Origin: a virus
DNA length: 64,000 nucleotides
Virus record (IMG/VR): IMGVR_UViG_3300005748_000026
Coordinates: 1 to 64,000 of that record
Direction: 5' to 3' (one strand)
The notes under the pieces are model-generated. The model was given only the letters and a program-made list of their open reading frames with translations, was not told the origin of the DNA and did no database searches. A program made the translations under genes and the position numbers. This document shows positions 30,355 through 49,513 of the stretch, piece by piece. Position 1 is the first letter of the stretch. Every line of letters begins with the position of its first letter.

Positions 30355-30366
30355 ACCGTTTTTATT

Positions 30367-30558: not shown

Positions 30559-30562
30559 ATGG

Positions 30563-33901: not shown

Positions 33902-33924
33902 CAAGGTGTGGCATCTTGCCAAAA

Positions 33925-34459: not shown

Positions 34460-34478
34460 AATTTAAAACTTAAACAAC

Positions 34479-36539: not shown

Positions 36540-36596
36540 CGAAAACATATAAGATACGTTGCCTTTTTCGGCAATGGATTTTATACAGTGTTAGCA
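36534..36596 (+). other. attC-like site 7 (63 nt)
   Basis: R'' GGGTAAC, left arm TATAAGATACGTTGCC, a tight GCC-TTTTTC-GGC loop, right arm ending TTTTATA, core GTTAGCAGTA at 36590. A single long hairpin. Confidence 0.75.
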
Positions 36597-36649
36597 GTAT
36601 GTATTTTTAAACTTTTTGAGCGTAGGATTTAATAACAAAAAAATATAAA

Positions 36650-37057: not shown

Positions 37058-37063
37058 AAATAT

Positions 37064-37161
37064 TACTGCTAACGATTTGTATATGGTGTGTAGCCGAAGC
37101 ACCAAAATTATTCGGTTAAAAACAAAACATTAATAGGCTATACATTATATACTTTGTTATA
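37064..37161 (+). other. attC-like site 8 (about 98 nt)
   Basis: R'' GCTAAC, left arm GTATATGGTGTGTAGCC, right arm GGCTATACATTATATAC. Three differences are all plus-strand G-T wobbles. Core GTTATATTT at 37156. Confidence 0.8.
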
Positions 37162-37190
37162 TTTTAGTGCGGTTAATTAAAAACAGAATT

Positions 37191-37418
37191 ATGAAAAATA
37201 TAGAGATTAAACCAAGAGAAAATGAGAGCAGAAAAGATTATTTAATTAGAGTAGCTGTTGCTTATTTAAAAGAAGTTGACCATACGGGGCAGTTTCAAAC
37301 AAACTACCCTGACACAATTAAATATGATGATGCAGATTGTGATGGGTGTTGTTTAGCTGATGACTTAGAAAATGAGTTTTCTCATATAGAATTTGATGAC
37401 TTAACAGGCGAGTGGTAG
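37191..37418 (+). CDS. Cassette-borne hypothetical protein with CDGCC motif, 75 aa
   Basis: I use the ATG at 37191, after GTG in the core region. The protein is acidic with D-D-A-D-C-D-G-C-C-L-A-D-D in the second half, possibly metal-binding. Helical N-terminus. No family recognised. The cassette closes with AAATATAAC (37423-37431). Confidence 0.6.
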   Translation: MKNIEIKPRENESRKDYLIRVAVAYLKEVDHTGQFQTNYPDTIKYDDADCDGCCLADDLENEFSHIEFDDLTGEW

Positions 37419-37422
37419 CATT

Positions 37423-37553
37423 AAATATAACGATTTGTATATGGTTAGTATTACCATTGAATTATAAACGAATTAAATAAATAAAGATGAAAAATATATT
37501 AAAAACAGAAGATTTTAAAGAAGAAGGAATATTAACTATATACGGTGTTATGG
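37423..37553 (+). other. attC-like site 9 (about 128 nt), with ORF start in its loop
   Basis: R'' ATAAC, left arm GTATATGGTTAGTATT, right arm AATATTAACTATATAC, core GTTATGGGTA at 37547. The loop contains the ATG of the next ORF. Confidence 0.75.
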
Positions 37554-37708
37554 GTATGTTGCCTGATGCCGAAAAAGTTGATGAATTGGCTGAAAAATGG
37601 TGTGATGAAAATGCGGAATCTTGGAATGCACAAAACTCTGCTTACATAGCTGGTATGACTGATTTAATTGAAGCAATAAAAGAACTTGGCAAACTAAACA
37701 GGTACTAA
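37487..37708 (+). CDS. Cassette ORF reading through the recombination core, 73 aa
   Basis: The frame begins in the attC loop and continues through the core, which encodes G-V-M-G. An alternative start is the ATG inside the core itself (37550), giving 52 residues. The C-terminal part (D-E-L-A-E-K-W-C-D-E-N-A-E-S-W-N) is a charged helix with no recognised family. The closing box TACCCATAAC (37715-37724) fits the core at 37547. Confidence 0.55.
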   Translation: MKNILKTEDFKEEGILTIYGVMGMLPDAEKVDELAEKWCDENAESWNAQNSAYIAGMTDLIEAIKELGKLNRY

Positions 37709-37714
37709 GGCAAT

Positions 37715-37849
37715 TACCCATAACGTATATGGTATGGTGACGTTGCGACCTTATAGCACGAACTTAATTAATAATTACAAAACTTTGAATTATGAATACA
37801 GATAGAAAAAAAACAGAAACCAAGCAATGCACTATACCAAGTGTTAGCG
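37715..37849 (+). other. attC-like site 10 (about 130 nt), with ORF start in its loop
   Basis: R'' CATAAC, left arm GGTATGGTGACGTTG (one bulge), right arm CAATGCACTATACC, core GTTAGCGGTA at 37843. It is closely similar to the site at 49.4 kb. Confidence 0.75.
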
Positions 37850-38088
37850 GTAGTTTTATTTTTGATAAGAACTTAATTGAAAGAGCAATGACTGCTGACA
37901 AGCCTTATTATGCGATAGGTGTTGATACTTATGACAAAAGTAATCTTGCTTATTGCCTTACCCGAAAAATAGATGGTGTGATTGAGGTATTACTATCTAA
38001 AACAATGAGAGACGAAACTGAATTTAAGCAAGATGTTGAAACACTCGCAAAGTGCTTTGAAGCAGATGTATTTACAAGTGGTGACTAA
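37792..38088 (+). CDS. Cassette ORF reading through the core (SVSGS), 98 aa
   Basis: The N-terminal 17 residues are encoded in the attC loop. The core gives P-S-V-S-G-S, the same crossing peptide as the minus-strand gene at 49.2-49.45 kb. The cassette part (from about residue 22) is soluble alpha/beta with no recognised family. A shorter start at Met33 is possible. Closing box TACCGCTAAC at 38091-38100. Confidence 0.55.
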   Translation: MNTDRKKTETKQCTIPSVSGSFIFDKNLIERAMTADKPYYAIGVDTYDKSNLAYCLTRKIDGVIEVLLSKTMRDETEFKQDVETLAKCFEADVFTSGD

Positions 38089-38090
38089 AT

Positions 38091-38187
38091 TACCGCTAAC
38101 GGTTTGGCTAAGAAGCGTAGCCACGTAATCACGCTTCATTAAAAGACAAAAAAGTCGCATATCTATGCTTATTAGCTGTTGTTGTGC
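38091..38187 (+). other. attC-like site 11 (about 95 nt)
   Basis: R'' CGCTAAC, left arm GGCTAAGAAGCGT, right arm ATGCTTATTAGC, core GTTGTGCGCA at 38181. The same core occurs at 29546. Confidence 0.7.
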
Positions 38188-38199
38188 GCAGTACGGATT

Positions 38200-38394
38200 A
38201 TGATGACGATAAAAGATTTAAAGAAAAAAATCGCAAACTACCACGATGATATGCCTATTGTAATAGTTCCCGAAAATGATGACAGAGATGAATCACAGGT
38301 AGTAATGACAAACGAAATGTGGGATAGGTTAAGAACTAAAAAAGCTAACGGAGTATCAAAAAGTGTTGCGATTTTATGCGTGCCGTTCGGGTAG
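38200..38394 (+). CDS. Cassette-borne hypothetical protein, 64 aa
   Basis: The ATG lies 10 bases after the core box. The start is K-D-L-K-K-K-I-A-N-Y-H-D-D-M-P-I-V-I-V, typical of small phage proteins with D-M-P-V-xx motifs, and C-terminal strands S-V-A-I-L-C-V-P. No function known. An upstream TTG in frame belongs to the core. Closing box TGCGCACAAC at 38398-38407. Confidence 0.6.
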   Translation: MMTIKDLKKKIANYHDDMPIVIVPENDDRDESQVVMTNEMWDRLRTKKANGVSKSVAILCVPFG

Positions 38395-38397
38395 TAT

Positions 38398-38460
38398 TGC
38401 GCACAACGGTTTAGCTATGCACCGTAAAGCATAGCGTATGGTGTATAGGTGTTGTTGTGT
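38398..38460 (+). other. attC-like site 12 (about 60 nt)
   Basis: R'' GCACAAC, arm TATGCACCGTA with TATGGTGTATA, core GTTGTGTGTA at 38454. Short form. Confidence 0.7.
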
Positions 38461-38655
38461 GTATGTTAAAATGCGGTAATGGTTGTAAGTTGGTTCGATT
38501 CTAACTACCGCAACGAGAGAGGTTCGAATCCTCAAACCCTTGTAGTCAGCAGGTGTCGAGTACTGCATTAGCCGAAACAGGTAGTTAGGTTGTAAATGGA
38601 GCATGGCTTTGCAAGGTGACGGCTCGGAAAGACGAGCATTTTTATTACACACAAC
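38454..38655 (+). ncRNA. RNA cassette with tRNA-like minihelix and terminator hairpin
   Basis: A full cassette (GTTGTGTGTA to TACACACAAC) without a convincing ORF. It holds a 41-nt element, 38472-38512, with 7-bp acceptor TGCGGTA/TACCGCA stacked on a 5-bp T-stem around TTCGATT. A second T-loop TTCGAAT lies at 38523-38529. A hairpin GCTCG/CGAGC (38622-38637) is followed by five T. Short frames (for example 38479-38574, 31 codons) exist but look incidental. The product is probably a structured RNA of about 160 nt. Confidence 0.5.
38622..38643 (+). terminator. Terminator-like hairpin inside the RNA cassette
   Basis: GCTCG and CGAGC flank GAAAGA and are followed by ATTTTT, a minimal intrinsic terminator just before the cassette end. 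Confidence 0.5.
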
Positions 38656-38838
38656 GGAATCGGCTATGCTTAGTGCGAATATTAACGATAAAATTTAATT
38701 GAAATGGAAGATGTAAAACTAACGAAAGAACAAGAGATACTATTTGAGGTATATGATAAAGGTGTGCAAAATGAAGATTGCGACCTAGATGCTTATATTG
38801 AAAAGATGAAGCAAGCATTAAGTATAGCCAATGTTACC
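38646..38838 (+). other. attC-like site 13 (about 190 nt), with ORF start in its loop
   Basis: R'' TACACACAAC (38646-38655), left arm GGCTATGCTTAGTGC, right arm GCATTAAGTATAGCC, core GTTACCTG at 38833. Arms pair along 15 positions with two G-T wobbles. The 120-nt loop is coding. Confidence 0.75.
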
Positions 38839-38994
38839 TGCCGTTTTTTATTTATTTACGTAGATGGTGACTACAAGCTAATACAATATGTGGAAGCTAA
38901 AAACCAAGAAGAAGCTGAAAGTAAAATGGAAGAGGGTTGGGCTAGGATTGTTGAACTAGAAGAAGACATGCAAGTTGTTTATAATGGTAGGTAA
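38704..38994 (+). CDS. Cassette ORF spanning attC loop and core, 96 aa
   Basis: The first 43 residues (acidic helical, E-D-V-K-L-T-K-E-Q-E) come from the attC loop. S-I-A-N-V-T is encoded by the right arm and core. The remainder (F-L-F-I-Y-V-D-G-D-Y...Q-Y-V-E-A-K-N-Q-E-E-A) is a small beta-alpha domain of the cassette. No family recognised. Its stop codon overlaps the R'' box that joins the attI-like site before the recombinase. Confidence 0.6.
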   Translation: MEDVKLTKEQEILFEVYDKGVQNEDCDLDAYIEKMKQALSIANVTCRFLFIYVDGDYKLIQYVEAKNQEEAESKMEEGWARIVELEEDMQVVYNGR

Positions 38995-39036
38995 CTAACA
39001 TATATATTACACCTACTATAACTAATTGATAATCAA
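38992..39036 (+). other. attI-like site 1 (45 bp, inverted copy at 42810-42854)
   Basis: A 45-bp sequence starting TAACTAACATATATATTACA directly follows the last cassette and ends 11 bases before the recombinase ATG. It recurs perfectly in inverse orientation at 42810-42854 and partially at 49166-49204. Read from the recombinase it presents the core ATATATGTTA-GTTA and an upstream TTAGTTA direct repeat. Confidence 0.7.
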
Positions 39037-39047
39037 AAAGAAACGGC

Positions 39048-39872
39048 ATGGATATTCCCAACTTAACCGAAAGACTTAGGAGAGAATTAGAGTTTGCTAA
39101 CTATAGTAATTCTACAATTAATCAATATGAGTCATGTTTAAAACAATTCATCAATTACTTTAACTCCAAGTATAATGAGCCTAAGAAGATACCTACATCA
39201 GCTATCAAAGAATATGTAACAAGTCTACACGGAATAGCTAAAAAGAAACAGGCTATAGGATGTTTGAAGCTATTCTATAAACACGTTTGTAAACAACCGA
39301 AAAAACTATCTGGTGTGGCGTATCCGAAAGGAGAGTCAAAGAAAGCAATCATCCTAAGTGATAGTGAACTTCGAGCATTGTTTGGAGCTTGCACTAACCT
39401 TAAACATAGAACTATTATGGAGGTCATGTATGGTACTGGTGTACGTGTATCAGAACTTCTCAACATCAAACTATCAGATATTGACAGAGCTAATGGAGTT
39501 ATTCACATACATGATGGTAAAGGGTGTAAGCAAAGGCACGTAACATTGTCTTCTAAACTTCTTAGTAGTATTACTAGGTATTGGAGAGCGTATAGGAGTG
39601 AGGTTTATTTATTTGAAGGTGTGGCGTGTAGAAAATACTCAGCATCAAGCATTAACCAATTCTTAAAGAAGTACGCTGCCAAAGCAGGTGTTAAGAAGCG
39701 TATCTACGCTCATTTACTACGCCACAACTACACAACTTCTTCTTTAAAAAATGGTGAGAACTTATACATTACCCAAAAATGCTTAGGGCATAAAAGTCCA
39801 TCTACAACTTCTAACTACTATTACCATATAAGCCCTGAGATAGTCTCTGGTGCTTTTCAACCAACAATCTAA
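39048..39872 (+). CDS. Tyrosine recombinase (integrase), 274 aa
   Basis: The N-terminal SAM-like core-binding domain occupies about residues 1-85. The catalytic set is complete: R in T-G-V-R-V-S-E-L-L (about 130), K in G-K-G-C-K-Q-R, H-L-L-R-H (about 225-229), L-G-H-K-S (about 250) and the nucleophile Y in S-N-Y-Y-Y-H (about 263). It is short and Xer-like. I do not see the extra insert typical of integron integrases. It starts 11 bases after an attI-like site and is the obvious candidate for moving the cassettes. Confidence 0.85.
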   Translation: MDIPNLTERLRRELEFANYSNSTINQYESCLKQFINYFNSKYNEPKKIPTSAIKEYVTSLHGIAKKKQAIGCLKLFYKHVCKQPKKLSGVAYPKGESKKAIILSDSELRALFGACTNLKHRTIMEVMYGTGVRVSELLNIKLSDIDRANGVIHIHDGKGCKQRHVTLSSKLLSSITRYWRAYRSEVYLFEGVACRKYSASSINQFLKKYAAKAGVKKRIYAHLLRHNYTTSSLKNGENLYITQKCLGHKSPSTTSNYYYHISPEIVSGAFQPTI

Positions 39873-39877
39873 AAATT

Positions 39878-39979
39878 ATGGCATCAATTATAGGAACAAC
39901 ATTCGCTTTAATGGCTTTTTGCTTTATCTTAATAACTATTGGTGTGGTGTGTTTCACACTATTAGACCGAGATGAATAG
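39878..39979 (+). CDS. Single-span small membrane protein, 33 aa
   Basis: Five bases after the recombinase stop. Residues about 8-28 are hydrophobic and the end is L-L-D-R-D-E. A GGTGTGGTGTG word encodes part of the span (G-V-V-C). No family recognised. Confidence 0.5.
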   Translation: MASIIGTTFALMAFCFILITIGVVCFTLLDRDE

Positions 39980-39987
39980 TATATTTG
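39980..39987 (+). promoter_or_regulatory. -7 promoter box (TATATTTG)
   Basis: TATATTTG on the plus strand, 14 bases before the ATG at 40002. -33 region weak. Confidence 0.45.
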
Positions 39988-40001
39988 TAAAAACAATTAT
40001 C

Positions 40002-40214
40002 ATGGAAAGAAAAGATTACACAGGAGGAAAGAACTTCTTCCAATGGGTTTTAGCCCAAAAGAAATTAGCAGCAGGTGGAGTAATTATACTTCCTTTACTA
40101 GCATTAGTAATGGGATTCCCACTAGAAGCTCTTATCCTAAGTTCAATGACCATCATAACATTTGTTATGCTAGTGTCTCAGTATCGAAAACTTAAAAGAG
40201 GATTTAGAGAATGA
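40002..40214 (+). CDS. Membrane protein, 70 aa
   Basis: Two hydrophobic segments (about residues 24-40 and 44-60) with a charged N-terminus and a basic C-terminus (Y-R-K-L-K-R-G). An ATG at 39972 would add ten residues but precedes the -7 box. The stop overlaps the next start by four bases. Holin-like in outline, yet far from the lysis block. Function unknown. Confidence 0.5.
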   Translation: MERKDYTGGKNFFQWVLAQKKLAAGGVIILPLLALVMGFPLEALILSSMTIITFVMLVSQYRKLKRGFRE

Positions 40215-40720
40215 GATATACTATTAGAAAGGGGAGGAACTATTCTTCCCCTATTTTAGCTAAGATTAGAGGTTTTTTTGGTGTGGCATCTTGGAATGTA
40301 TCATTCAAAATACCTACTAACTTCAATGTAGCTCAAGAAGATGCTATAAGTAAATTATGGGGAGTTTCCTTAAATGGATACCACCACAAAAACTCTTATA
40401 GAATAGGCATAAGACCTTATTCATCTAACTTAGCTCAACTATACCACTATTCATATCAAAATGGAGAAAGAATATACAAGCCATTTGGAGTTGTTCTTCT
40501 TGGTAAAAAGTATAAGATGAATGTATCCATTAAAAATGGTATGGTAACTATTAAAACTATCGAAGGTAACATTGACCCGATACCAGAGGGAGGTTCTAAA
40601 TTCCCAATCAAAGTGGATAGGATTAAATATGGATATTACCTATATCCTTATCATGGTGGTGAGGACAAAGCAAAAGAAACTATGAAATTTGATTTGAAAA
40701 TATGCTCTATCAGAAAGTAA
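40211..40720 (+). CDS. Hypothetical protein, 169 aa
   Basis: Basic and aromatic-rich beta-type protein (R-Y-T-I-R-K-G-R-N-Y start). The FGVASW segment is encoded by the recurrent GGTGTGGCATCTTG motif. Coupled to the preceding gene by ATGA and overlapping the next by 19 bases. No family recognised. Confidence 0.55.
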   Translation: MRYTIRKGRNYSSPILAKIRGFFGVASWNVSFKIPTNFNVAQEDAISKLWGVSLNGYHHKNSYRIGIRPYSSNLAQLYHYSYQNGERIYKPFGVVLLGKKYKMNVSIKNGMVTIKTIEGNIDPIPEGGSKFPIKVDRIKYGYYLYPYHGGEDKAKETMKFDLKICSIRK

Positions 40721-41082
40721 AGAAAATAATAGAGTCTTCAAAAGAGGACAATATAAAAGACCACAAAGAAAAGAATCTAGTAAACAAATATGTTTTTGTC
40801 TCTTACTTTGATACGGTAATTTTTGATTTTGTTACTGTTACAATATCTAAAGGGAATACTTATAAAACTGAGGTGGAAATATATTGTCCTAAAACTAATT
40901 TTAAAACAAGAGGTGTGGCAGACTGCATGATTATGAGGCAATCTGTTCACACCGCTTTTGAATATGCAGGAGTCAAGTTCCTTAGACCTGTATTAGCAAG
41001 TCAAAAAGGAATTGAAGATGCTGTAGCTGCTATTGCTAAAAAACTAAAGCACACAAAACTCCACACCGTAAAGTTACTCTAG
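40702..41082 (+). CDS. Hypothetical protein, 126 aa
   Basis: Charged helical N-terminus, then a beta-rich centre (V-F-V-S-Y-F-D-T-V-I-F-D-F-V-T-V-T) and a basic C-terminus. Last plus-strand gene of the accessory arm, it ends nine bases inside the convergent 110-aa gene. No terminator is visible at the junction. No family recognised. Confidence 0.55.
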   Translation: MLYQKVKKIIESSKEDNIKDHKEKNLVNKYVFVSYFDTVIFDFVTVTISKGNTYKTEVEIYCPKTNFKTRGVADCMIMRQSVHTAFEYAGVKFLRPVLASQKGIEDAVAAIAKKLKHTKLHTVKLL

Positions 41083-41406
41083 TATATACTTATCAAATAT
41101 ATGCTTATAGTCTTTATCTAAGGCAAAAGGTATTTCCACTCCTTTTCTTTTTAATTCTTCATGGGTGTGGAGTATTGTTAAAGCAAATCTAGCTAACTCT
41201 TCATCAGCTACCTTAAAACAATTAACCAACCTTTTCATCTCTTGTAACTTATACTCTCTCTTATTAAAGTCTGATTGGCTTAACAACCTTTGATTCAACT
41301 TACCCTGTATAGTCTCCCAAGACTTCTGAATCTTATACTCAAACTTTAGTATCTCTTGACTTAAAGATGTTGTGTCAATATTTCGTTGACTTTCCGTTAC
41401 TCCCAT
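41074..41406 (-). CDS. Helical hypothetical protein, 110 aa
   Basis: Strongly helical, charged (K-I-Q-K-S-W-E-T-I-Q-G-K-L-N-Q-R). Last gene of the right minus-strand arm, convergent with the plus-strand arm. Overlaps the upstream 84-aa gene by 32 bases. No family recognised. Confidence 0.5.
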   Translation of the reverse strand: MGVTESQRNIDTTSLSQEILKFEYKIQKSWETIQGKLNQRLLSQSDFNKREYKLQEMKRLVNCFKVADEELARFALTILHTHEELKRKGVEIPFALDKDYKHIFDKYILE

Positions 41407-41629
41407 TTCTTGCTCTGTTTTTAGATTTGTTCTCTAATACATATCCACCAGACTTAGTATGACTTACATCATCACCACCTTTGCCCATAACACCCCTCTT
41501 CCTACGCTCCTTATTTAGTTGCGCTCTATATTTACGTCTCTTAGCTGTGCTATGGTACTTCTTATCGTAGGCAGCTTTCTTTTTCCTAGCCTCTGGATTC
41601 TCTTTATAATATTTCGCTGATTTCTTCAT
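41375..41629 (-). CDS. Basic phage protein with DVSHT-SKNRARNG motif, 84 aa
   Basis: The N-terminus (K-Y-Y-K-E-N-P-E-A-R-K-K-K-A-A-Y-D-K-K-Y) and the end (D-V-S-H-T-K-S-G...S-K-N-R-A-R-N-G) are, to my memory, widespread in aquatic phages without assigned function. Its extreme basicity suggests nucleic-acid binding and its D-V-S-H-T/N-R pattern is vaguely HNH-like. A -7 box lies directly upstream. Confidence 0.6.
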   Translation of the reverse strand: MKKSAKYYKENPEARKKKAAYDKKYHSTAKRRKYRAQLNKERRKRGVMGKGGDDVSHTKSGGYVLENKSKNRARNGSNGKSTKY

Positions 41630-41633
41630 CTAA

Positions 41634-41641
41634 CAAAGATA
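41634..41641 (-). promoter_or_regulatory. -7 promoter box (TATCTTTG)
   Basis: Minus-strand TATCTTTG five bases before the start of the 84-aa gene, so transcription could begin almost at the start codon. It may serve the 110-aa gene as well. Confidence 0.45.
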
Positions 41642-42748
41642 CTACTTAACAGCAAAATACTCTCTAGCTCTATGCTCATCCTTCCTTTTAAATACTACCT
41701 CTCCTTCTTCTCCATACTCTTCCCAATTCATTCTTTGATTATCCTTTAAGGCTTGGAGTAGCTTGTTTTTTAGCTCAGACTTCTTGTTGCGCATCTGAGT
41801 TTCTAAATCTTTCACCTCAATATACTCGTTCCTAATTTTCAATGTATCTAAGTCTCCTTGAATAACAGACTCTTCTTCAATATTCTTCCACTTATCTTTT
41901 AAGAACTTCTCTTCATTCTCACCGCCTTGTGCTATTGGCTCGTTAGAGTAAATTCTACTCATAATCTCAGCTCTAATATCAGCGTCTTCATTCTCATCAT
42001 ACAAGCTATAAAGCTCTCTGCATAATTGTACGTTATCCCAAAATTCTTTCGCTTTTAATAACACCTCAGCTACATCATCCTCTGTAATAGTTACAGATTG
42101 AACCTTAAACTCTCTCTCTACTAAGTATGCTATTTCTCCATAGTCTACCTCCATTACTATACATTGCTCCTTTATCTGGTCAAAGTAGTTTGGCGGAAGT
42201 CCTGCTTCGTACATATCTGATACTATCTTTTTGATAGCCTTACACTCTACAGGGAATGGGTGTGGTATGTTGCTTCCTGTAAATGGGCTTTCTTGATTAC
42301 CATGAGCCATGTAGTCAATAGACGCGGATAAGTAAGGGAATTTAGTGTTTACCGCAAAGCAATTAATGTTACGTAACTTTCTTACTTCAACACTATTTAC
42401 AATGTTATCTATCCAAGACTCCACACCATCATAATGCTCCCAATACTTTCCAATTATAGGCTCTGCAAATCTTCCGTATATAGTATCTGCATTATTGAAT
42501 TGAGGTGGTATCTCTTTAAACACTTTCTCATGCCATACTTTTAGAGTAGAACCATACTTATTATTCCCAAGTACTGTACCTATCTCAGAACTTCCAATTA
42601 CTTCTGTTCTAAAGTCAAGCCAATCATAATTAATGTTATTTGTACCTTCTATAAATTGAGGGATGTAAAATCCCCATACTGTACCTTTAATTCTCTTTGC
42701 ATATCCTGAGAATCTTTCTAAGTGTGATAATTCTTCTGGTAGTTTCAT
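41642..42748 (-). CDS. YqaJ-type viral recombinase / exonuclease, 368 aa
   Basis: The motif series I-G-S-S-E-I-G-T-V-L-G-N-N-K-Y-G, V-W-H-E-K, Y-G-R-F-A-E-P-I-I-G-K-Y-W, F-P-V-E-C-K-A and Q-C-I-V-M-E-V belongs to the YqaJ / lambda exonuclease-like PD-(D/E)XK family. It would resect double-stranded ends for annealing with the ERF protein at 46.2 kb. I use Met at 42748. It sits in the segment bounded by the inverted attI-like sites. Confidence 0.75.
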   Translation of the reverse strand: MKLPEELSHLERFSGYAKRIKGTVWGFYIPQFIEGTNNINYDWLDFRTEVIGSSEIGTVLGNNKYGSTLKVWHEKVFKEIPPQFNNADTIYGRFAEPIIGKYWEHYDGVESWIDNIVNSVEVRKLRNINCFAVNTKFPYLSASIDYMAHGNQESPFTGSNIPHPFPVECKAIKKIVSDMYEAGLPPNYFDQIKEQCIVMEVDYGEIAYLVEREFKVQSVTITEDDVAEVLLKAKEFWDNVQLCRELYSLYDENEDADIRAEIMSRIYSNEPIAQGGENEEKFLKDKWKNIEEESVIQGDLDTLKIRNEYIEVKDLETQMRNKKSELKNKLLQALKDNQRMNWEEYGEEGEVVFKRKDEHRAREYFAVK

Positions 42749-42809
42749 AATATTTAGGTATTTACCCCAAGTTATTTGTGACACTTGGGAGTTTTAATGT
42801 TCTTTCGTA

Positions 42810-42854
42810 TTGATTATCAATTAGTTATAGTAGGTGTAATATATATGTTAGTTA
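42810..42854 (-). other. attI-like site 2 (inverted copy)
   Basis: Perfect 45-bp inverted copy of 38992-39036. On the minus strand the last cassette's R'' GTAGATAAC runs into TAACATATATATTACA, as at site 1. Confidence 0.7.
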
Positions 42855-42855
42855 T

Positions 42856-43164
42856 CTACAAGGCTAACTTTGTGCTATCATAAAGAATATTTCCCAACTT
42901 AATACAAAAACGCACTTCATCATCTGCACCCCATTCTTTATTTCCTTTACCAATTCTTATTCCATCAAATTCAACTACCATTGTAGGTGCGTTTTTTGCG
43001 TAACCGTTTTTAAAAACAATTTTATCATAAGGTATAAAGGCGTGGAATGGCTCTTGTAAACTCATATCTTTTAATCGCTTAATCCAGTAGTCTTTTATTT
43101 CTCTATATTCTTCTTTCTTCACGCCTTTTGAAATCATATCGAACCATTGTTTTTTAAGGGTCAT
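42856..43164 (-). CDS. Cassette-borne ASCH-like domain protein, 102 aa
   Basis: M-T-L-K-K-Q-W-F-D-M-I-S-K-G-V-K-K-E-E-Y-R-E-I-K is the typical start of ASCH-type domains, small RNA-binding-like folds found in phages and sometimes in toxin/antitoxin or tRNA-modifying proteins. A longer frame to 43245 reads back through the attC core (L-Y-T-L-L-S-T-G), but the domain begins exactly at the ATG at 43164, so that start is preferred. Confidence 0.7.
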   Translation of the reverse strand: MTLKKQWFDMISKGVKKEEYREIKDYWIKRLKDMSLQEPFHAFIPYDKIVFKNGYAKNAPTMVVEFDGIRIGKGNKEWGADDEVRFCIKLGNILYDSTKLAL

Positions 43165-43182
43165 GTGTAAAATCCGCCCAGT

Positions 43183-43311
43183 AGATAACAATGTATATAA
43201 TTCAGGCTGTGCATCTGCTTTTTTATAATCTTCTGTACTTATCATAGTTTTGTATTTATCTGTTATTTAATGGCTTTAAAAACGCCCGAAATCATATACT
43301 CAACGTTACCC
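43183..43311 (-). other. attC-like site m4 (about 129 nt)
   Basis: On the minus strand R'' GGGTAAC, left arm GTATATGATTTCGGGC, right arm GCCTGAATT-ATATAC, core GTTATCTAC at 43189. Long loop with an in-frame ATG. Confidence 0.75.
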
Positions 43312-43315
43312 ACCA

Positions 43316-43522
43316 TTAGAGTCCCTGTTCTAAGGCGAGTTTGGCAGCTTCACCCTCTTTGAGCATTTTCTTTAATCCTTTAAGGTCGTCTTGCCACGCA
43401 TGGTCAGATTGATACTCGCCACTTGCTTTATGCTTTCCATTTATAGTAATACTATAATCGAATGTGTAGTACCATTGGTCGGTATCTATGTTTGTAATCT
43501 CTACTTCTATTGTTGTTTTCAT
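43316..43522 (-). CDS. Cassette-borne small protein, 68 aa
   Basis: Starts 25 bases after the core. N-terminal beta-strands (T-T-I-E-V-E-I-T-N-I-D...Y-S-I-T-I-N-G-K) and a C-terminal charged helix. No family recognised. It ends directly before GGTGGGTAAC, the complement of its core. Confidence 0.6.
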   Translation of the reverse strand: MKTTIEVEITNIDTDQWYYTFDYSITINGKHKASGEYQSDHAWQDDLKGLKKMLKEGEAAKLALEQGL

Positions 43523-43537
43523 TTCTTAAATTTTAAC

Positions 43538-43604
43538 GGTGGGTAACACTATATAAAAACAAGTTCGTACCTCACCAGATTTTTATACTCAACGTTGTGT
43601 GTAA
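43538..43604 (-). other. attC-like site m3 (about 60 nt)
   Basis: Minus strand: R'' CACAAC, left arm GAGTATAAAAATC, right arm GTTTTTATATAGT, core GTTACCCACC at 43547. Confidence 0.75.
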
Positions 43605-43717
43605 TAGGTGGGGATTGGATTCGAACCAATGCAAGTACCAACCATTTTTCAGGTCATTCCTACCACAGGTCAATTACGGTAAACGCCCACCTACTACTAA
43701 GCCTTTCGGCACACAAC
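43594..43717 (-). other. RNA cassette carrying a tRNA-like gene
   Basis: The whole cassette, GTTGTGTGCC at 43717 to TTACACACAAC at 43594, is filled by the tRNA-like sequence. There is no ORF. Its core family (GTTGTGTG) matches the RNA cassette at 38.45 kb. Confidence 0.55.
43607..43691 (-). tRNA. Degenerate or unusual tRNA, anticodon possibly GAA (Phe)
   Basis: Acceptor GGTGGGC/CCCCACC (last pair mismatched; 43685-43691 with 43607-43613). Perfect T-arm ATTGG-TTCGAAT-CCAAT (43614-43630). Possible D-stem TACC/GGTA with a long loop. Anticodon stem TGACC/GGTTG with two wobbles around an eight-base loop containing TGAAAAA. At 85 nt without a long variable arm it departs from a standard tRNA, so it may be non-functional or a tRNA mimic. 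CCA is not encoded. Confidence 0.45.
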
Positions 43718-43932
43718 AAAAGCTATAAATAATAAATATTACTTACCATTTTTGTAAATAAAATGCAGAAGCAACCAACCAAAGGCATATCCCTTTATAA
43801 CATCTTTGTCCCATTTTGTACCAACACTAGCCCAATATGGTAGTATACTTATTTGTGGTTTTAATTCTAAATAAAATCTAACTTTCATATTTCGTAATTT
43901 TTAAAATTCATAGCCAAATACGTTGTAGGCAA
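43708..43932 (-). other. attC-like site m2 (about 215 nt) with an ORF in its loop
   Basis: Minus strand: R'' CCTACAAC, left arm GGCTATGAAT, right arm ATTTATAGC, core GTTGTGTGCC at 43717. The loop holds a 49-codon frame. Confidence 0.65.
43739..43888 (-). CDS. 49-aa ORF enclosed in an attC-like loop
   Basis: ATG at 43888-43886, stop TAA. The product has L-K-P-Q-I-S, P-Y-W-A-S-V-G-T-K-W-D-K-D and a hydrophobic G-Y-A-F-G-W-L-L-L-H-F segment, coherent enough to be a real small, possibly membrane-associated protein. No family recognised. Placement wholly between the arms of a recombination site is unusual. Confidence 0.45.
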   Translation of the reverse strand: MKVRFYLELKPQISILPYWASVGTKWDKDVIKGYAFGWLLLHFIYKNGK

Positions 43933-43940
43933 TAGCCTTG

Positions 43941-44189
43941 CTAAAGTTCTTCACCGCATTTAAGACATTTGTTTATTTCCCCATTGCATTTACTCATTAC
44001 CGAAGCAAAAGGGTGTTCGCAAGGCAACTGTTCGCTTTGCCCTACAACACTGTGTAAACGTAATTGCTCAAGCATATAATCGTAAGCAGTATCGTTTATT
44101 TGTTGTCGCTTTTCTATTGGTACTTCTGCTAAATCAAATAGCTGTGCTAATATTCCAATCGCTTGTTTTTCTAATTTGTTTTTATCCAT
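43941..44189 (-). CDS. Cassette ORF reading through the core, zinc-finger-like C-terminus, 82 aa
   Basis: Residues 1-46 (helical, E-K-Q-A-I-G-I-L-A-Q-L-F-D-L) come from the attC loop. H-S-V-V-G-Q is encoded by the core GTTGTAGGG. The cassette part has C-E-H, C-N and C-L-K-C-G-E, a likely zinc-binding knuckle. It looks like a chimera of two modules joined at the recombination point. No family recognised. Confidence 0.6.
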   Translation of the reverse strand: MDKNKLEKQAIGILAQLFDLAEVPIEKRQQINDTAYDYMLEQLRLHSVVGQSEQLPCEHPFASVMSKCNGEINKCLKCGEEL

Positions 44190-44243
44190 AATATTCGTTT
44201 TTAATGTCGGTCAAAAACTACCCATATCTGTTTACGTTAATCA
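44040..44243 (-). other. attC-like site m1 (about 200 nt), weak arms
   Basis: R'' TTAAC follows the stop of the DUF3310-like gene; core GTTGTAGGG at 44048. Only GTAAAC/GTTTAC pairs obviously, so this site is less certain than the others. Confidence 0.45.
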
Positions 44244-44491
44244 GATAGTTCTTTAGCTTTATTCTCATACCACTTAGCCTTTTCTAAATCTCTCTCTATA
44301 GGTTGGTGTGGCTTGTTTCCTAATCTAAGTCTATACTTAAATGCACACATCTCACAATGGGCTATGAACTTATCCTTTCCCCATACCTTTAACATCATTT
44401 CCCAAACTTCTATACTTGAGTTCTTGTAATGCTCTGGATTGACATAATCATAGTTCTCACTATCAATATTCCTTGACATGAAATCTCCCAT
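44237..44491 (-). CDS. DUF3310-like protein, 84 aa
   Basis: V-N-P-E-H-Y-K-N...E-V-W-E-M-M...G-K-D-K-F-I-A-H-C-E-M-C-A-F-K-Y-R-L-R-L-G-N-K...D-L-E-K-A-K-W-Y is the signature of the small SaV-like/DUF3310 phage family, often near nucleotide-metabolism genes. Function unknown. It lies one base after the MazG-like gene. Confidence 0.75.
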   Translation of the reverse strand: MGDFMSRNIDSENYDYVNPEHYKNSSIEVWEMMLKVWGKDKFIAHCEMCAFKYRLRLGNKPHQPIERDLEKAKWYENKAKELSD

Positions 44492-44492
44492 A

Positions 44493-45011
44493 CTAATTAA
44501 ATCTTGGCTCTTGAAACGACAAAGACTTCATAACTTTTTTGTCTGACTCTCTTCTAACTATCCAAAAGCTGCCATTCCTTTGAATGTAACAATCTATCTT
44601 TTCATTAGGCTTATTTGGGTGAGTTCCGTTTCCGTATGCTTTTACAGTATTTCTTGCTTCATCTATAGTCTTACATAGCTTGGACATATTAGACTCGTAA
44701 ACAGCCTCAGTAACGTCTTTAATATCTATATTGCAGCACTCCATTAACTGTATTAGACTAAACAATACATCAGCACCACCATCTTTAACTTCTCTTACGT
44801 TCCCCTCCATTAAAGCGGTCATCAATTCATCTACTTCCTCATTAAGCAAGTCAACACATGAATTAATTACATCATTTTCTGGCATGGATGGTCTGCCGTC
44901 TGATAGTTTTAATCCAAATACACTTCTCCAATGCCTTACTAAATCTACTACGTCTCTTTTCTCGTATTTACCTATTGTATTCATCTCTTCTGATTCTTGT
45001 GTTATGTTCAT
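44493..45011 (-). CDS. MazG-like nucleotide pyrophosphohydrolase, 172 aa
   Basis: The helical core L-L-N-E-E-V-D-E-L-M-T-A-L...E-V-K-D-G-G-A-D-V-L-F-S-L-I-Q-L carries the E-E-x-x-E and D-x-x-x-D metal-binding pattern of the MazG/PRA-PH superfamily, which hydrolyses nucleoside triphosphates or related nucleotides. The 50-residue C-terminal tail is extra. ATGA overlap with thyX indicates coupling for deoxynucleotide pool control. Confidence 0.7.
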   Translation of the reverse strand: MNITQESEEMNTIGKYEKRDVVDLVRHWRSVFGLKLSDGRPSMPENDVINSCVDLLNEEVDELMTALMEGNVREVKDGGADVLFSLIQLMECCNIDIKDVTEAVYESNMSKLCKTIDEARNTVKAYGNGTHPNKPNEKIDCYIQRNGSFWIVRRESDKKVMKSLSFQEPRFN

Positions 45012-45730
45012 ATACCGAAGGCTTGTATTGTATGTTTAAAAGGATTCCCTTCAATGTTTTTAACGGCATCAACCATATCAGATGCTATTTCTCTAATCTC
45101 TAACTGAGCTGCATCATCTCTCCTTAAACTTATAAAGTTGTAAAAGCAACTCATATTCATCATTACAGATAATGTTATTTGAGAGTTCATTGTCTTGAAG
45201 TACCTAGCAGATTCCTTTGCTCTTTTTCTGCCTAAAATTGGGGTTAATTCTTTTAATGACTGATGGTATAAGGCATTGCCTAACTTAGTGTACTCTTCTA
45301 AAACTTTACTCCAATCAGTCCACCCTTTTCCATTTTTAAAATTTGTTGAAGTATCATCTCCGATGAGATAACCTTGAGTCATTGTTATAGGTAAATCACA
45401 AGTAATGCCTTTCCAATCTTTTGGAATGTAGTATTTATCATGCTTTAATTCCTTGTACCTAGCACTCTCTCCATTTATATTAGCTAAACGATGCTTGATG
45501 GCATGAATATGTGAAGCCTGCTCGCATACTATATTAAACTCTACTATACCTCTTTCAAATGGAGATTTATGGGGATTGCCTGAACTATTGTTCCATAGTT
45601 TCTCATTAATAAGTACTCCAATTTCTTCATCTGTTTTAGAGTCTACCTCTATTTGAGTAGATGTCCAAGCTGCTCTTGCTATAGCTTTATCTCCACCATA
45701 CCAACCTATTAACTCAACTTCATTTACCAT
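45008..45730 (-). CDS. thyX: Flavin-dependent thymidylate synthase, 240 aa
   Basis: The ThyX signature region appears as S-P-F-E-R-G-I-V-E-F-N, H-R-L-A-N-I-N-G-E-S-A-R-Y and downstream A-R-Y-F-K-T-M-N-S-Q-I. The enzyme makes dTMP from dUMP with methylene-tetrahydrofolate, FAD and NADPH. The RHRxxSxNxxSxR motif is modified here (K-H-R-L-A-N-I-N-G-E-S-A-R), which still keeps the key Arg and Ser. It is linked to the MazG-like gene by overlap. Confidence 0.8.
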   Translation of the reverse strand: MVNEVELIGWYGGDKAIARAAWTSTQIEVDSKTDEEIGVLINEKLWNNSSGNPHKSPFERGIVEFNIVCEQASHIHAIKHRLANINGESARYKELKHDKYYIPKDWKGITCDLPITMTQGYLIGDDTSTNFKNGKGWTDWSKVLEEYTKLGNALYHQSLKELTPILGRKRAKESARYFKTMNSQITLSVMMNMSCFYNFISLRRDDAAQLEIREIASDMVDAVKNIEGNPFKHTIQAFGI

Positions 45731-45906
45731 TCCTTTCTCAAGTATTTCCTTTTTATTTCTTCTGGGTCTCTTCCTTTCTTGTAACTGATTACCATACCAT
45801 TAACCACAATAGTCTCTAAATCATCTTCATTAACCTTAGATTTTAATTCCTCTAAGTAAATTCTTGAGGCTGATTTCTCTTCTTCCTGTTCGGTGTTCTT
45901 TATCAT
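45724..45906 (-). CDS. Small charged protein, 60 aa
   Basis: Glu/Lys-rich with L-E-T-I-V-V-N-G-M-V-I-S-Y-K-K-G-R-D. I start at Met 45906 (a Met at 45933 is upstream). Overlaps thyX by seven bases, suggesting translational coupling. No family recognised. Confidence 0.5.
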   Translation of the reverse strand: MIKNTEQEEEKSASRIYLEELKSKVNEDDLETIVVNGMVISYKKGRDPEEIKRKYLRKEW

Positions 45907-45953
45907 AGTATTAGATGTAAAAAGGGGCAGCAATACACCACCCCTTATTAGTA

Positions 45954-46232
45954 TTACTCAGCTTTCTCTTCTTCTACACTACTCTTTAGTTTAGAATTTA
46001 ATTCCTCCAACTCTTTAGCTGCCTTAGCATAAAACTCTGACATCTGTGTTAAGAAGTCTGGATGAACTCGCATTTCAACTATGCTAAACTGAGGAACTAA
46101 CTCAATATCATTCTTTTTGTTTAACTCTGCTGATACGCTCTCTACTGTTTGAGATACATTTACATAAGGAGATAACCCTTTTTCTGTTTTTTCGTAAACA
46201 ATTCCGTAAGATACTGTTCTTAAATGATTCAT
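45954..46232 (-). CDS. Hypothetical protein next to ERF, 92 aa
   Basis: Mixed N-terminus and a coiled-coil-like acidic C-terminus (L-E-E-L-N-S-K-L-K-S-S-V-E-E-E-K). Overlaps the ERF gene by four bases (ATGA), so it is likely part of the recombination set. No family recognised. Confidence 0.5.
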   Translation of the reverse strand: MNHLRTVSYGIVYEKTEKGLSPYVNVSQTVESVSAELNKKNDIELVPQFSIVEMRVHPDFLTQMSEFYAKAAKELEELNSKLKSSVEEEKAE

Positions 46233-46885
46233 TTCTTTTTTGGTTTTGATATTAACGTTTTGAATTTTCTTTTCTCTGCATCTGTAGTTGATATAACATC
46301 GTCTATAGTTTTGTACTTACCTTCTGTTAAGCCTTCTATGTCTGATTCTTTATATCCTCCCTTCATTAGTAATGCAGTTAGTACTTCTTTTGCTCCCGCT
46401 TTTGGTGTGGCAGGTTGCTTTGGTGTGGCAGTTTTGTTTGAGTTTGATGTCCTATTCTTTAAGTCAGGGTCATTCTCATCAGTTGGAATACCAAACAAGT
46501 TAAGCCAAAAGTATCTTTGACCATAAGTGTAAGCAGAACCTACTCCTTGCTCCTCATTATTACAACCGCTTGAGAACCACGGAATCTCAACAGACTCATT
46601 ATCCTCAGTATCAACGATAGTATATACCATTGATATAGTGTATAGGGTTTCGTGCTTAATTACCGTCTCTCCTGTTTTGTTGTTTATCTTCTCGCCAGTA
46701 ACTACTCTTTCATAGCTAGAATCAACAACTCTTGGAAATACAAATAAATTATGCTTTTCCAATAAAGGATTTACTGTAGATAGTATGTTCATTCCACTTA
46801 CATACTTGTATCCGTAACCAGACTTATCCTTCTTTAAGAACGGAAGTTCCCCTTTTACTTTTAATAACTTAGCGTGAACTGCCAT
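46229..46885 (-). CDS. ERF-family single-strand annealing protein, 218 aa
   Basis: The ERF hallmark is G-V-G-S-A-Y-T-Y-G-Q-R-Y-F-W-L-N-L-F-G-I-P-T followed by D-E-N-D-P-D; the N-terminus Y-G-Y-K-Y-V also fits. It anneals single strands during phage recombination, with the YqaJ exonuclease and the SSB-like protein upstream. A linker with A-T-P-K repeats follows, encoded by two GCCACACC words (GGTGTGGC on the plus strand), then a helical domain. Confidence 0.8.
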   Translation of the reverse strand: MAVHAKLLKVKGELPFLKKDKSGYGYKYVSGMNILSTVNPLLEKHNLFVFPRVVDSSYERVVTGEKINNKTGETVIKHETLYTISMVYTIVDTEDNESVEIPWFSSGCNNEEQGVGSAYTYGQRYFWLNLFGIPTDENDPDLKNRTSNSNKTATPKQPATPKAGAKEVLTALLMKGGYKESDIEGLTEGKYKTIDDVISTTDAEKRKFKTLISKPKKK

Positions 46886-46887
46886 GA

Positions 46888-47223
46888 TTAAAATGGTAAA
46901 TCGTCCTCAGTTTCAGCTTGTGGTTGAATGTCGGCAGTTCCTCCAATCATCTGAACGCCTACTGCCTTCAAAGAATTAAAGTACTTTGTTCCATCTTTAC
47001 CATCCCACTTTCTACCTCCTACATAGAAAGCAACTTCTACTACAGAATTTAATTCTGCCTTGTCTACTTCACTTCCTTTTTCTCCCCACAATTCAAACTT
47101 AATGTGGTTTGGATAGTTAGAGTCTAGGTCTTTACCTAGAATAAACTCTGTCTTTGTAGTTTTACCTACTTGAATTGGGTCTTGAACTTCTAACAAGACT
47201 CCCTCGATTTTAAACGGTGTCAT
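46888..47223 (-). CDS. SSB-like OB-fold protein (DUF3127-like), 111 aa
   Basis: The protein has an OB-fold-like pattern (F-K-I-E-G-V-L-L-E-V...F-I-L-G-K-D...I-K-F-E-L-W-G-E-K) and ends in an acidic E-D-D-L-P-F tail like that of bacterial SSB, which recruits partners. It is two bases upstream of the ERF gene. It probably coats single-stranded DNA during annealing. Confidence 0.7.
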   Translation of the reverse strand: MTPFKIEGVLLEVQDPIQVGKTTKTEFILGKDLDSNYPNHIKFELWGEKGSEVDKAELNSVVEVAFYVGGRKWDGKDGTKYFNSLKAVGVQMIGGTADIQPQAETEDDLPF

Positions 47224-47226
47224 AAT

Positions 47227-47547
47227 TTACCTGTTTTGATTATATACTTGTTTTAACTTTTCTTTCTTGTCATACACCACACTCCAGTCACATTTCATTC
47301 TTTTAGCGTAAGCCTCTCTTTGAGCTATTGTTCCTGCATCTAAAAGGTTATGCTCCTCAAATGTCAAAAGCATGATGTTATCCTTGTTTAATCTTTCGGA
47401 TGAATAGTACCCTTTGTTTAGAAGGTGAGCGAAATTACTTACGTTAAAGTATGGTAGATATATGCCAGACAACTCACTCTTATGAGGTCTTTCATTCCAT
47501 ATCTCTTTAAACATCTCTAACTCGCCTGTTTTCTTACGCCTTTTCAA
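47227..47547 (-). CDS. HNH-like nuclease candidate, 106 aa
   Basis: The core H-K-S-E-L-S-G, F-N-V-S-N-F-A-H-L-L-N-K-G, L-N-K-D-N-I-M-L-L-T-F-E-E-H-N-L-L-D resembles a short HNH/NinG-type fold with His (A-H-L), Asn (D-N-I) and His (E-E-H). It would cut DNA, perhaps at branched structures. Met12 is an alternative start; the longer form overlaps the GroES-like gene by 14 bases. Confidence 0.5.
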   Translation of the reverse strand: MKRRKKTGELEMFKEIWNERPHKSELSGIYLPYFNVSNFAHLLNKGYYSSERLNKDNIMLLTFEEHNLLDAGTIAQREAYAKRMKCDWSVVYDKKEKLKQVYNQNR

Positions 47548-48133
47548 AAGCTAGTAATGTTCTGTTATCAACTCTCCAATAATGCTCTCCCTCTACTAAT
47601 ATATCGTAGTTAGGATGAGAACCGAAGTAACACTTATCTCCTGACTCTACTCCTTCCTCTTCCATTTCTGGGCTTGGGTGTGCCATGTTGCCATACTCCA
47701 TTATATACTCAGGCTTGTTTTCAACACCAACAATTCCACTATCACTTTCATAAATCTCTCTTTTAATAGGCTTAATCAAGTTCCAATTAGGCATAGTTAT
47801 CAACTCACCATCTCTAACTATGCAATATACAGAAGCACCTCTTATTTCATATAGAGTTTCGTTGTCAAACACTATTTGTTGGTCTTCTCTCAATCCATTA
47901 TGAGTGAAATAGACCTTATCTCCTTCTTTAATTTGTGGTATCTTGGCTGTAGGATATTTTACAATACCAAATTGCCTTACGTACTTGTAATTAAATGGGT
48001 CAAATTTAGTGTCTATAACTAAATCTATCTCATTACCATCTTCGCCTTTTATTGAAACAGTATCGTTACGCTCTTTATCTACGTCAACGTATATGTATCC
48101 ATTGATTGCTCTGAAATTCTCTGTTGTATTCAT
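47534..48133 (-). CDS. GroES-like co-chaperonin fold candidate, 199 aa
   Basis: Two similar halves each show a V-x-x-P...E-G-D-K-V/C-Y-F...E-I/Y-W...V-R-D/V-D pattern, reminiscent of GroES-type beta-barrels (phage co-chaperonins such as T4 gp31 replace host GroES for capsid folding). The second half (V-E-S-G-D-K-C-Y-F-G-S...L-L-A-F-E) is the clearer. The mobile loop is not obvious. Inference from motif only. Confidence 0.45.
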   Translation of the reverse strand: MNTTENFRAINGYIYVDVDKERNDTVSIKGEDGNEIDLVIDTKFDPFNYKYVRQFGIVKYPTAKIPQIKEGDKVYFTHNGLREDQQIVFDNETLYEIRGASVYCIVRDGELITMPNWNLIKPIKREIYESDSGIVGVENKPEYIMEYGNMAHPSPEMEEEGVESGDKCYFGSHPNYDILVEGEHYWRVDNRTLLAFEKA

Positions 48134-48170
48134 AACTTATTTTAGCTGCAATTTAAAAATAATATTCTAT

Positions 48171-48641
48171 CTACGAAAATCTATGTGACTTTTCTCTAAA
48201 ATATCTAGCCCTAGTTTCTACTTGTATTTTTTTATCTAAATGTGTACCTATCTCTTGCCCTACTTCTATTGGGTCGTATCCTAACTTTAAATACTTTACA
48301 ATGTCTTGCCCCTCATTATCTAAATACTTCTTCAACAACTCTACTTCCTCTCTCTTTTGTTGCCTTGTTAATTCGTATAATTCGGTGTCGGAGTCTGGGG
48401 TTAATGTTTCTTTATGTTGTGGTATGTTGCTTGCATACAAAGTACTATCCCACTCCCATTGATTTAAAACAGAAGTAGCTTCTTCTTCAATATCACACCA
48501 CACCAGATAGTCCTCGCAGTCAACTTTAATTACATTTCCATTCTGCACATGAACATCTAAGTCTAATGTATTACCATTAACATCAAACTTTACTGAGAAA
48601 ACTTTAGTTGTAGTTTTTAGTATGTCAGATATTATTCTCAT
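48171..48641 (-). CDS. Hypothetical protein, 156 aa
   Basis: Beta-rich N-terminus (K-V-F-S-V-K-F-D-V-N-G-N-T-L-D-L-D-V), acidic middle and a helical C-terminus (R-Q-Q-K-R-E-E-V-E-L-L-K-K-Y). Overlaps the upstream gene by four bases. No family recognised. Confidence 0.5.
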   Translation of the reverse strand: MRIISDILKTTTKVFSVKFDVNGNTLDLDVHVQNGNVIKVDCEDYLVWCDIEEEATSVLNQWEWDSTLYASNIPQHKETLTPDSDTELYELTRQQKREEVELLKKYLDNEGQDIVKYLKLGYDPIEVGQEIGTHLDKKIQVETRARYFREKSHRFS

Positions 48642-49096
48642 CGTATTTGCTTGCTTGTTGGTGATTTTTTTGTTGGCTTCTTCAACTCCATCATTCTTTT
48701 TACATCAGCCCTATAGTCTGTTGTGTAATATTTCTGGTTAATATACTTGGATAAACTAGCAGGCTCAGGAACGAAAGAACCTTCTTCCTTTTTAAGCTCT
48801 CTATACTTTAACTCAATAGCGTAGACTTTCCTTAGATGTGGAACTACCTTACTATAGTCTTTAATCTTCTTTTTAAGATTACTCCACTCTACATCTAATC
48901 CTCTCTTTGTTCCAATATACATTAGTCTGAATAAATTAAACTCTTGTTTAAGTTCTGATTCATTAGTCTCTTCTGTTTTAACGAATCCATATTTAGTTAG
49001 CTTAAATGTTCCCTCAGAACTTACCCATTCATTATTTCCCATATCCATCATACCTAGATGTTGGGCTAAGTCTAAATAGCATTTGTTTTCGTACAT
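48638..49096 (-). CDS. Hypothetical protein, 152 aa
   Basis: I start at Met 49096, directly behind the CACACCACACC form of the recurrent motif. The N-terminal half looks like a winged-helix-type small domain (L-A-Q-H-L-G-M...F-K-L-T-K-Y-G-F-V), the second half is helical and basic. A replication accessory role is possible. No family recognised. Confidence 0.5.
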   Translation of the reverse strand: MYENKCYLDLAQHLGMMDMGNNEWVSSEGTFKLTKYGFVKTEETNESELKQEFNLFRLMYIGTKRGLDVEWSNLKKKIKDYSKVVPHLRKVYAIELKYRELKKEEGSFVPEPASLSKYINQKYYTTDYRADVKRMMELKKPTKKSPTSKQIR

Positions 49097-49126
49097 GGTG
49101 TGGTGTGTTAAAATTAGAAAGCTCAA

Positions 49127-49165
49127 GAGTTAACTTTCTAAAATAAATATGTTAAATACTTGATA
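49127..49165. other. Spacer before attI-like site 3
   Basis: AT-rich, no feature seen beyond the leader of the minus-strand 152-aa gene. Confidence 0.4.
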
Positions 49166-49204
49166 GTTAGTTGGTTGGATTAGATGCACTATATATGTTA
49201 GTTA
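49166..49204 (-). other. attI-like site 3 (diverged copy)
   Basis: On the plus strand TTAGATGCACTATATATGTT runs into AGTTAG, matching the TATATATGTTA-GTTA core of the two 45-bp copies. A TAGTTAG direct repeat lies about 25 bp upstream. It adjoins the end of a single cassette. Confidence 0.6.
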
Positions 49205-49220
49205 GTGGCAATTAAAATGA

Positions 49221-49448
49221 CTAGCTACTACCTACGCCATATTTGGTATGCAGTTTTTTTGCTGCGTATATTTCTTGTTTTTGCTTTTCAGATATTTTTC
49301 TGTAAAACGTTGAACGGTTTATACCAAATTTGGCTAAAGCATCACTTATATTCCATCCTTCTTCAACTAATTTAAGTATCGAAGAATAACTGCCACTAAC
49401 ACTATGTAAAGTGCATTGCGTAGTAGTTTTGTTTTTGTTTTTGCTCAT
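49221..49448 (-). CDS. Cassette ORF with homeodomain-like HTH, reading through the core, 75 aa
   Basis: Residues 1-15 come from the attC loop, H-S-V-S-G-S from the core. The cassette part L-V-E-E-G-W-N-I-S-D-A-L-A-K-F-G-I-N-R-S-T-F-Y-R-K-I-S is a clear resolvase/transposase-type helix-turn-helix. No ATG follows the core before this domain, so translation from the loop ATG seems required. It is the strongest case for core-crossing translation. Confidence 0.65.
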   Translation of the reverse strand: MSKNKNKTTTQCTLHSVSGSYSSILKLVEEGWNISDALAKFGINRSTFYRKISEKQKQEIYAAKKLHTKYGVGSS

Positions 49449-49513
49449 AATATTTAAGTTTTATTCTTTGTTTAACATTGGTGCAGCAACGCACCTTACA
49501 TTCAACGTTAATT
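49391..49513 (-). other. attC-like site m5 (about 120 nt)
   Basis: Minus strand: R'' AATTAAC, left arm ATGTAAGGTGCGTTG, right arm CAATGCACTTTACAT (two G-T wobbles), core GTTAGTGGCA at 49400. The start codon of the 75-aa ORF is in the loop. Confidence 0.8.

Follow-up and report, generated by a model that had tools for sequence, protein, structure and literature searches.

The virus DNA analysed here (the window, 64.0 kb out of a 66.8-kb virus record) very probably carries a phage-borne integron-like system in which the cassettes are reversed and the attC site, lying on the 5' side of the ORF, for that reason doubles as the 5' expression module of the gene. The anatomy of the arrays, the mobile unit, the preservation of the reading frame and the occurrence of one loop and leader with many bodies are directly supported by the data. 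In the proposed mechanism, an XerA-like tyrosine recombinase, in a putative role, would insert and remove circular cassettes at an attI site beside its own gene. Read along the ORF, a cassette would have the form C-[attC loop]-GTTyyy-[ORF]-yyyAA, and its single coding strand would fold into the attC stem-loop and be cut at AA|C (the bar marks a cut, a junction or the core boundary). In many cassettes, translation is predicted to begin in the loop and to continue through the core, usually as Val-Ser-x-Ser, into the body. In ordinary integrons, attC lies downstream of the gene, and expression need only tolerate it. Here it lies ahead of the gene and seems to be translated, which would make the recombination site a protein start as well, and the N-terminus of many small "hypothetical" phage proteins may be encoded by a recombination site.

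Four cassette arrays are present in the window. In every cassette, 8–18 nt starting at GTT form the complement of the stretch leading up to the final AAC, and this core-arm pattern (GTTxxxx...xxxxAAC) was recovered independently of the six core-crossing ORFs discussed below. The attC loop separates the AAC that closes one cassette from the GTT that opens the following one; its length is about 45, 80 or 115–121 nt and sometimes 177–204 nt. Array 1 (28129–30570, plus strand) has cores at 28129–28457, 28505–29428, 29546–29941, 30022–30231 and 30348–30570; its ORFs start mostly after the core, and a search for a copy of attI beside the array found none. Array 2 (36590–38995, plus strand) has cores at 36590–37073, 37156–37431, 37547–37724, 37843–38100, 38181–38407, 38454–38655 and 38833–38995, separated by attC loops of 82, 115, 118, 80, 46 and 177 nt. 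Array 3 (42851–44236, minus strand) has cores at 44048–43922, 43717–43594, 43547–43305 and 43189–42851 with loops in between, and array 4 (49201–49506, minus strand) is a single cassette with a loop at 49506–49401 and a core at 49400–49201. The loop-length clusters of about 45, 80 and 115–121 nt are spaced about 37 nt apart in all arrays. Position 11 of the core arms frequently forms a G.T wobble with the G on the GTT side, both in the window and in relatives; such a wobble favours the folding of one of the two strands. One large gene for a phage cassette (28503–29417, plus strand) resembles PAPS reductase-type ATP-pyrophosphatases (PF01507).

The gene at 39048–39872 (plus strand) encodes a XerA/XerC-like tyrosine recombinase of 274 amino acids with conserved catalytic residues R-K-H-R-H-Y and no IntI-specific I2 domain. 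Its best match is XerA (5hxy, NF040815), with 188 bits against a curated cut-off of 220 and hence below the family threshold. The integrase_gron profile gave 131 bits against a cut-off of 265, with the match split where the I2 domain is expected, and the alignment to IntI4 is interrupted (query 174–202 versus chain 176–247). IntI membership was ruled out because the I2 domain is missing. Directly upstream of the recombinase gene lies the attI of array 2 (38996–39040, plus strand; reverse strand ATTAGTTATAGTAGGTGTAATATATATGTTAG|TTAC). A second copy, at array 3 (42810–42850, minus strand), is identical over the core 40 nt and lies upstream of a YqaJ exonuclease gene, and a third copy, at array 4 (49160–49200, minus strand), is diverged. 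Arrays 2, 3 and 4 terminate 3' of their ORFs in this common sequence, AAC|TAACATATATATTACACC... (two identical copies and one diverged). A recombinase search recovered about 15 viral contigs with the order array, attI of ~50 bp and recombinase; the order is found in L002, L003, L005, L007, L008, L011, L012, L014–L019 and L022, and in at least 12 loci the constant site lies ~50 bp upstream of the recombinase ATG. Loci L020, L021 and L023–L028 have other recombinases and no such arrays, and a genome-contig search with the recombinase matched only an unrelated Erysipelotrichaceae recombinase. The system is also present in the isolated phages P12002L/S, Danklef and Freya; a search of P12002L/S, which have arrays, for a recombinase of the XerA-like family found none. 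From position and co-occurrence, we infer that the XerA-like recombinase is the enzyme that moves the cassettes.

The main ORFs of the mapped arrays point towards attI with attC 5' of the ORF, and not away from attI with attC 3' of the ORF as in ordinary integrons. In addition, excised attC sites fold better as the coding strand than as the other strand in 38 of 39 cases, by a mean of 5 kcal/mol (Wilcoxon p 6e-8, for sites that are not fully independent), so that single-strand folding and strand asymmetry are both observed. Given this folding and the 3' position of attI, the coding strand corresponds to the "bottom" strand of ordinary integrons and is probably the strand used in recombination. 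It is extremely improbable that this is an ordinary integron or CALIN acquired from a bacterial host, with attI left of the ORFs and the cassettes oriented as usual. Although attC-like sites are known in phages including P12002L, and one of these was recombined by IntI1 (PMC9892861), wherever an array has an attI, this site and the constant flank are found 3' of the ORFs, the recombinase is without the IntI I2 domain and the folding asymmetry favours the coding strand. The canonical orientation, with attI left of the arrays, was ruled out by the constant flanks and by the isolate junctions described below.

The six ORFs that an earlier note had described as starting in an attC loop and crossing the core are all present with those starts, and the core GTT is, as claimed, read as an in-frame Val in five of them. 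In array 2, the ORF 37487–37708 (plus strand), from the cassette 37432–37724 (loop 37432–37546, core and body to AAC), has 20 codons before the core and crosses it as YG|VMG in the Val frame; an ATG one codon past the core makes the loop start optional. The ORF 37792–38088 (plus strand), from the cassette 37725–38100 (loop 37725–37842 of a 118-nt family, and body), has 17 codons before the core and the leader MNTDRKKTETKQCTIPS|VSGS (PS|VSGS; Val frame). The ORF 38704–38994 (plus strand), from the cassette 38656–38995 (177-nt loop 38656–38832 and body), has a 43-aa leader and crosses as IAN|VTC in the Val frame. On the minus strand, the ORF 43941–44189 has a 47-aa leader with HS|VVGQ (Val frame), and the ORF 49221–49448, whose product is an HTH protein (Pfam HTH_23), has the 16-aa leader MSKNKNKTTTQCTLHS|VSGS (HS|VSGS; Val frame). 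The observation that this HTH gene has no ATG after the core was borne out, and no in-frame GTG or TTG occurs there either. The sixth ORF (42856–43245, minus strand) encodes a phrog_625 protein with a 19-aa leader and crosses as TL|LSTGR in the Leu frame, the core being read as TTG-TTA. A homologue in L029/L030, outside any array, keeps ADAQPELYTL|LST across the core, and more distant homologues begin roughly at the core position. Other window cassettes, for example those at 28505, 29546, 30022, 37156, 38181 and 43547, contain ORFs able to start after the core. Crossing of the core is common among the window cassettes and is not universal.

Loop starts were surveyed in 73 cassettes from relatives, 45 of which contain a long reading frame that is open at the core. 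An in-frame loop ATG is present in 31 of the 45 core-open ORFs, against 13.9±2.9 expected when the loops are shuffled. The crossing frames are not evenly distributed: 19 use the Val frame (4.7±1.9 expected with shuffled loops), 10 the Leu frame (8.1 expected, without group enrichment) and two the third frame (1.1 expected), which meets a stop in GTTAG cores. The excess of loop starts lies in the Val frame and is not due to chance. In the Val frame the consensus core translates as V-S-G-S, an innocuous linker, which is the likely basis of the preference for this frame; translated in the Leu frame it gives L-A-V-V. Single Leu-frame crossings that look real are L007 4997–5266, with a lipoprotein-like signal sequence, and the methylase L002 9181–9924. 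The start lies 13–27 codons upstream of the core in loops of ~118 nt and mostly 43–49 codons upstream in longer loops, and the leader peptides are short, mostly 14–49 aa. In Freya, the depositors' gene call of Freya2_67 begins at the loop ATG, and its tryptic peptide EQNEQCTIPSVSSSLFDLTTSEK spans the core. The loop has a conserved AAAACTTTGAATTATG and may hold a promoter. No report of loop starts or in-frame attC extensions was found in the open-access literature.

The crossing frames might instead be by-products of the sequence constraint on attC, with the true starts downstream of the core. Several cassettes have good ATGs past the core, about a third of the core-open ORFs are without an ATG in the loop and have a possible start downstream of the core, the leader amino acids are not clearly conserved, and the Leu-frame crossings are near chance. 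However, 21 crossing ORFs have no in-frame ATG within the first 15 codons past the core, and a downstream start would cost the methylase bodies, whose domains start 8–22 residues beyond the core, their first motif. Moreover, 19 unrelated bodies share one frame with a leader in which 3-nt indels occur. The by-product explanation is very unlikely on this evidence, and translation from the loop remains the preferred reading.

These 19 distinct bodies follow a single 118-nt loop family with the leader MNTDxKKTETEQCTIPS|V or a variant of it, always in the Val frame, and have no mutual blastp similarity. The set was obtained with a right-arm pattern that recovered 20 contigs, to which Freya, P12002S and the window were added; the loop of the window copy (37725–37842) is common to at least 18 other bodies. 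The family loops are mostly 72–96% identical, and in BLAST their similarity extends leftward to AAC and rightward to GTT, and no further. The sharp right boundary is partly a product of the right-arm search pattern, but it was reproduced by a second search conditioned solely on the left arm, about 100 nt from the core, which gave 13 intact Val-frame leaders, one decayed leader (L108) and one contig ending at the core. The dN/dS of the loop codons is about 0.8–1.3, with no sign of strong constraint on the leader amino acids. A value near 1 indicates that the frame and the start are kept and not the peptide, and the leader thus resembles a module for starting translation more closely than it does a protein domain. 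The decayed copy (~1129–1550, reverse strand of the 130-kb contig L108) combines the body cassette of Freya with a leader that has no ATG and contains a stop, and it lies upstream of another gene, at a site resembling attI.

The mobile unit is defined by junctions in paired contigs and in isolates. In the pairs L007/L008 and L015/L016, the flanks are alike and the cassettes different, with divergence at ...CAACG| and ...TAACG| on the left and at TAAC|attI on the right. Danklef_1 and Danklef_5 contain a methylase gene that is absent from Danklef_2, 3 and 4, and the difference is the gain or loss of one 781-bp methylase cassette at the junction TCTAAC|TAAAAAG. The cassette-free junction of Danklef_3 reads ATTAACTCTAAC|TAAAAAGTATATG, and Danklef_5 reads TCTAAC|GGTACTCGTATATG... 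(loop, core, methylase ORF) ...ATTACAGGTAAC|TAAAAAGTATATG. Freya_1, 2, 5 and 6 are nested, with steps of 842, 903 and 474 bp in turn, each adjoining attI; the junctions of this ladder are all AAC|ACCCCTATAAC, and the recombinase is intact. Some of the Freya junctions fall no more than about 12 nt away from the point where the circular record was arbitrarily opened, and those of Freya_5/Freya_6 and of Danklef are unaffected. A cassette common to Freya and the otherwise different L108 shows similarity over exactly AAC-loop-core-body-AAC. These junctions at AAC establish that the moving unit is loop, core and body, with the cut point AA|C at the 5' boundary of the loop, away from the core. Each cassette therefore brings its own leader, and the core that is crossed is internal and not a cassette edge. 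Natural Danklef and Freya junctions thus show whole cassettes gained and lost at G|TT, which on the folded strand is AA|C. The exception is P12002S versus P12002L, which differ by three cassettes (extra in P12002L) with a breakpoint 14–19 nt inside the loop and not at AA|C; this pair was dropped as a clean cut-site test. The Danklef recombinase is degenerate (L064, Danklef_1 40994–41476; profile positions 105–267 only, one TGA), and the array is polymorphic nonetheless.

The earlier note had proposed that cassette exchange swaps C-terminal modules behind loop-encoded N-terminal modules. Under such a mechanism, a G|TT recombination event in the core would replace the body alone, while the loop with its leader would stay in place. 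One leader does occur with 19 unrelated bodies, as that proposal would have it, and similarity does stop at the core GTT. The exchange at the core was not supported, since the loop travels with the body in isolates and paired contigs with breakpoints at AAC, the unit moved in isolates being AAC-loop-core-ORF-AAC, and attI is located at the 3' end of the ORFs. Body exchange at G|TT is already contradicted for the events seen, and as an explanation it is highly unlikely.

With movement of whole cassettes at AA|C as the preferred reading, the same loop with new bodies requires an event that breaks the DNA at both AAC and GTT. This joining of loop and body might come about by two-strand exchange between folded stems, by homologous recombination or by some other process of cassette genesis. 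The I2 domain has been tied to the block of second-strand exchange in IntI (PMC4792948). As this domain is missing here, it is conceivable, although rather doubtful, that the recombinase carries out a two-strand exchange between a pair of folded attC stems and thereby swaps whole loops among cassettes. If so, the loop would be a mobile 5' module, with start site and leader, that is placed before new genes, and cassette genesis would have a route yielding in-frame fusions. There is no reliable model of cassette origin (PMC4792948). Loops joined in frame to many bodies may represent a readable scar of cassette genesis, and the culturable Freya and Danklef isolates, which differ by single cassettes, make this genesis testable.

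The system shares several features with integrons (IntI; class 1, Vibrio superintegrons), including attC hairpins with complementary core boxes, cassette bounds at G|TT on one strand, an attI beside the recombinase gene, polar insertion next to attI, and near-identical attC sites with unrelated ORFs. In contrast to integrons, the recombinase is without I2, the ORFs are directed towards attI with attC at the 5' end of the gene, the core arms reach 14–16 bp, and the attC loop appears to encode a translated leader. The absence of I2 and the reversed ORF polarity set it apart from an IntI integron. Qi et al. (2023; PMC9892861) have listed the Polaribacter phage P12002L as a phage CALIN and have reported the recombination of its attC2 with attI1 by IntI1. 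P12002L has at least two attC sites and no IntI, as in a phage CALIN, its arrays are of the present type, and its gp37 and gp60 begin within a loop and read through the core. The window encodes a recombinase of its own. The loop starts, the reversed polarity, the XerA-like recombinase and the present attI are not reported in that study. XerA and XerC/D recombinases include the best sequence match of the window recombinase, but cassette arrays are found here instead of dif sites, and the score is below the XerA family cut-off. The Freya and Danklef phages (Forsetiviridae) are isolates containing the system; an integrase and genome variation of 44.0–48.9 kb have been reported for them (PMC8776804), and integrons and cassettes are not mentioned in that paper.

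Cassettes or loops without a clear ORF contain hairpins resembling a tRNA T-arm (GGTTCGAATCC), frequently two per cassette; examples are found at 38454–38655 (plus strand) and 43717–43594 (minus strand) of the window and at L007 4153–4280. An ARAGORN scan of the window, cassettes included, gave no tRNA genes. A match resembling the Twister-P1 ribozyme lies at 33565–33622 (plus strand) and scores 47 bits, short of the Rfam gathering threshold of 67. In addition, two copies of a hammerhead-like sequence (CTGAAGAG/CTGATGAG ... GAAAC; repeat D17) precede small genes at 33908–33977 and 34388–34462 (plus strand), with a weak match of 28 bits to the RAGATH-1 hammerhead.
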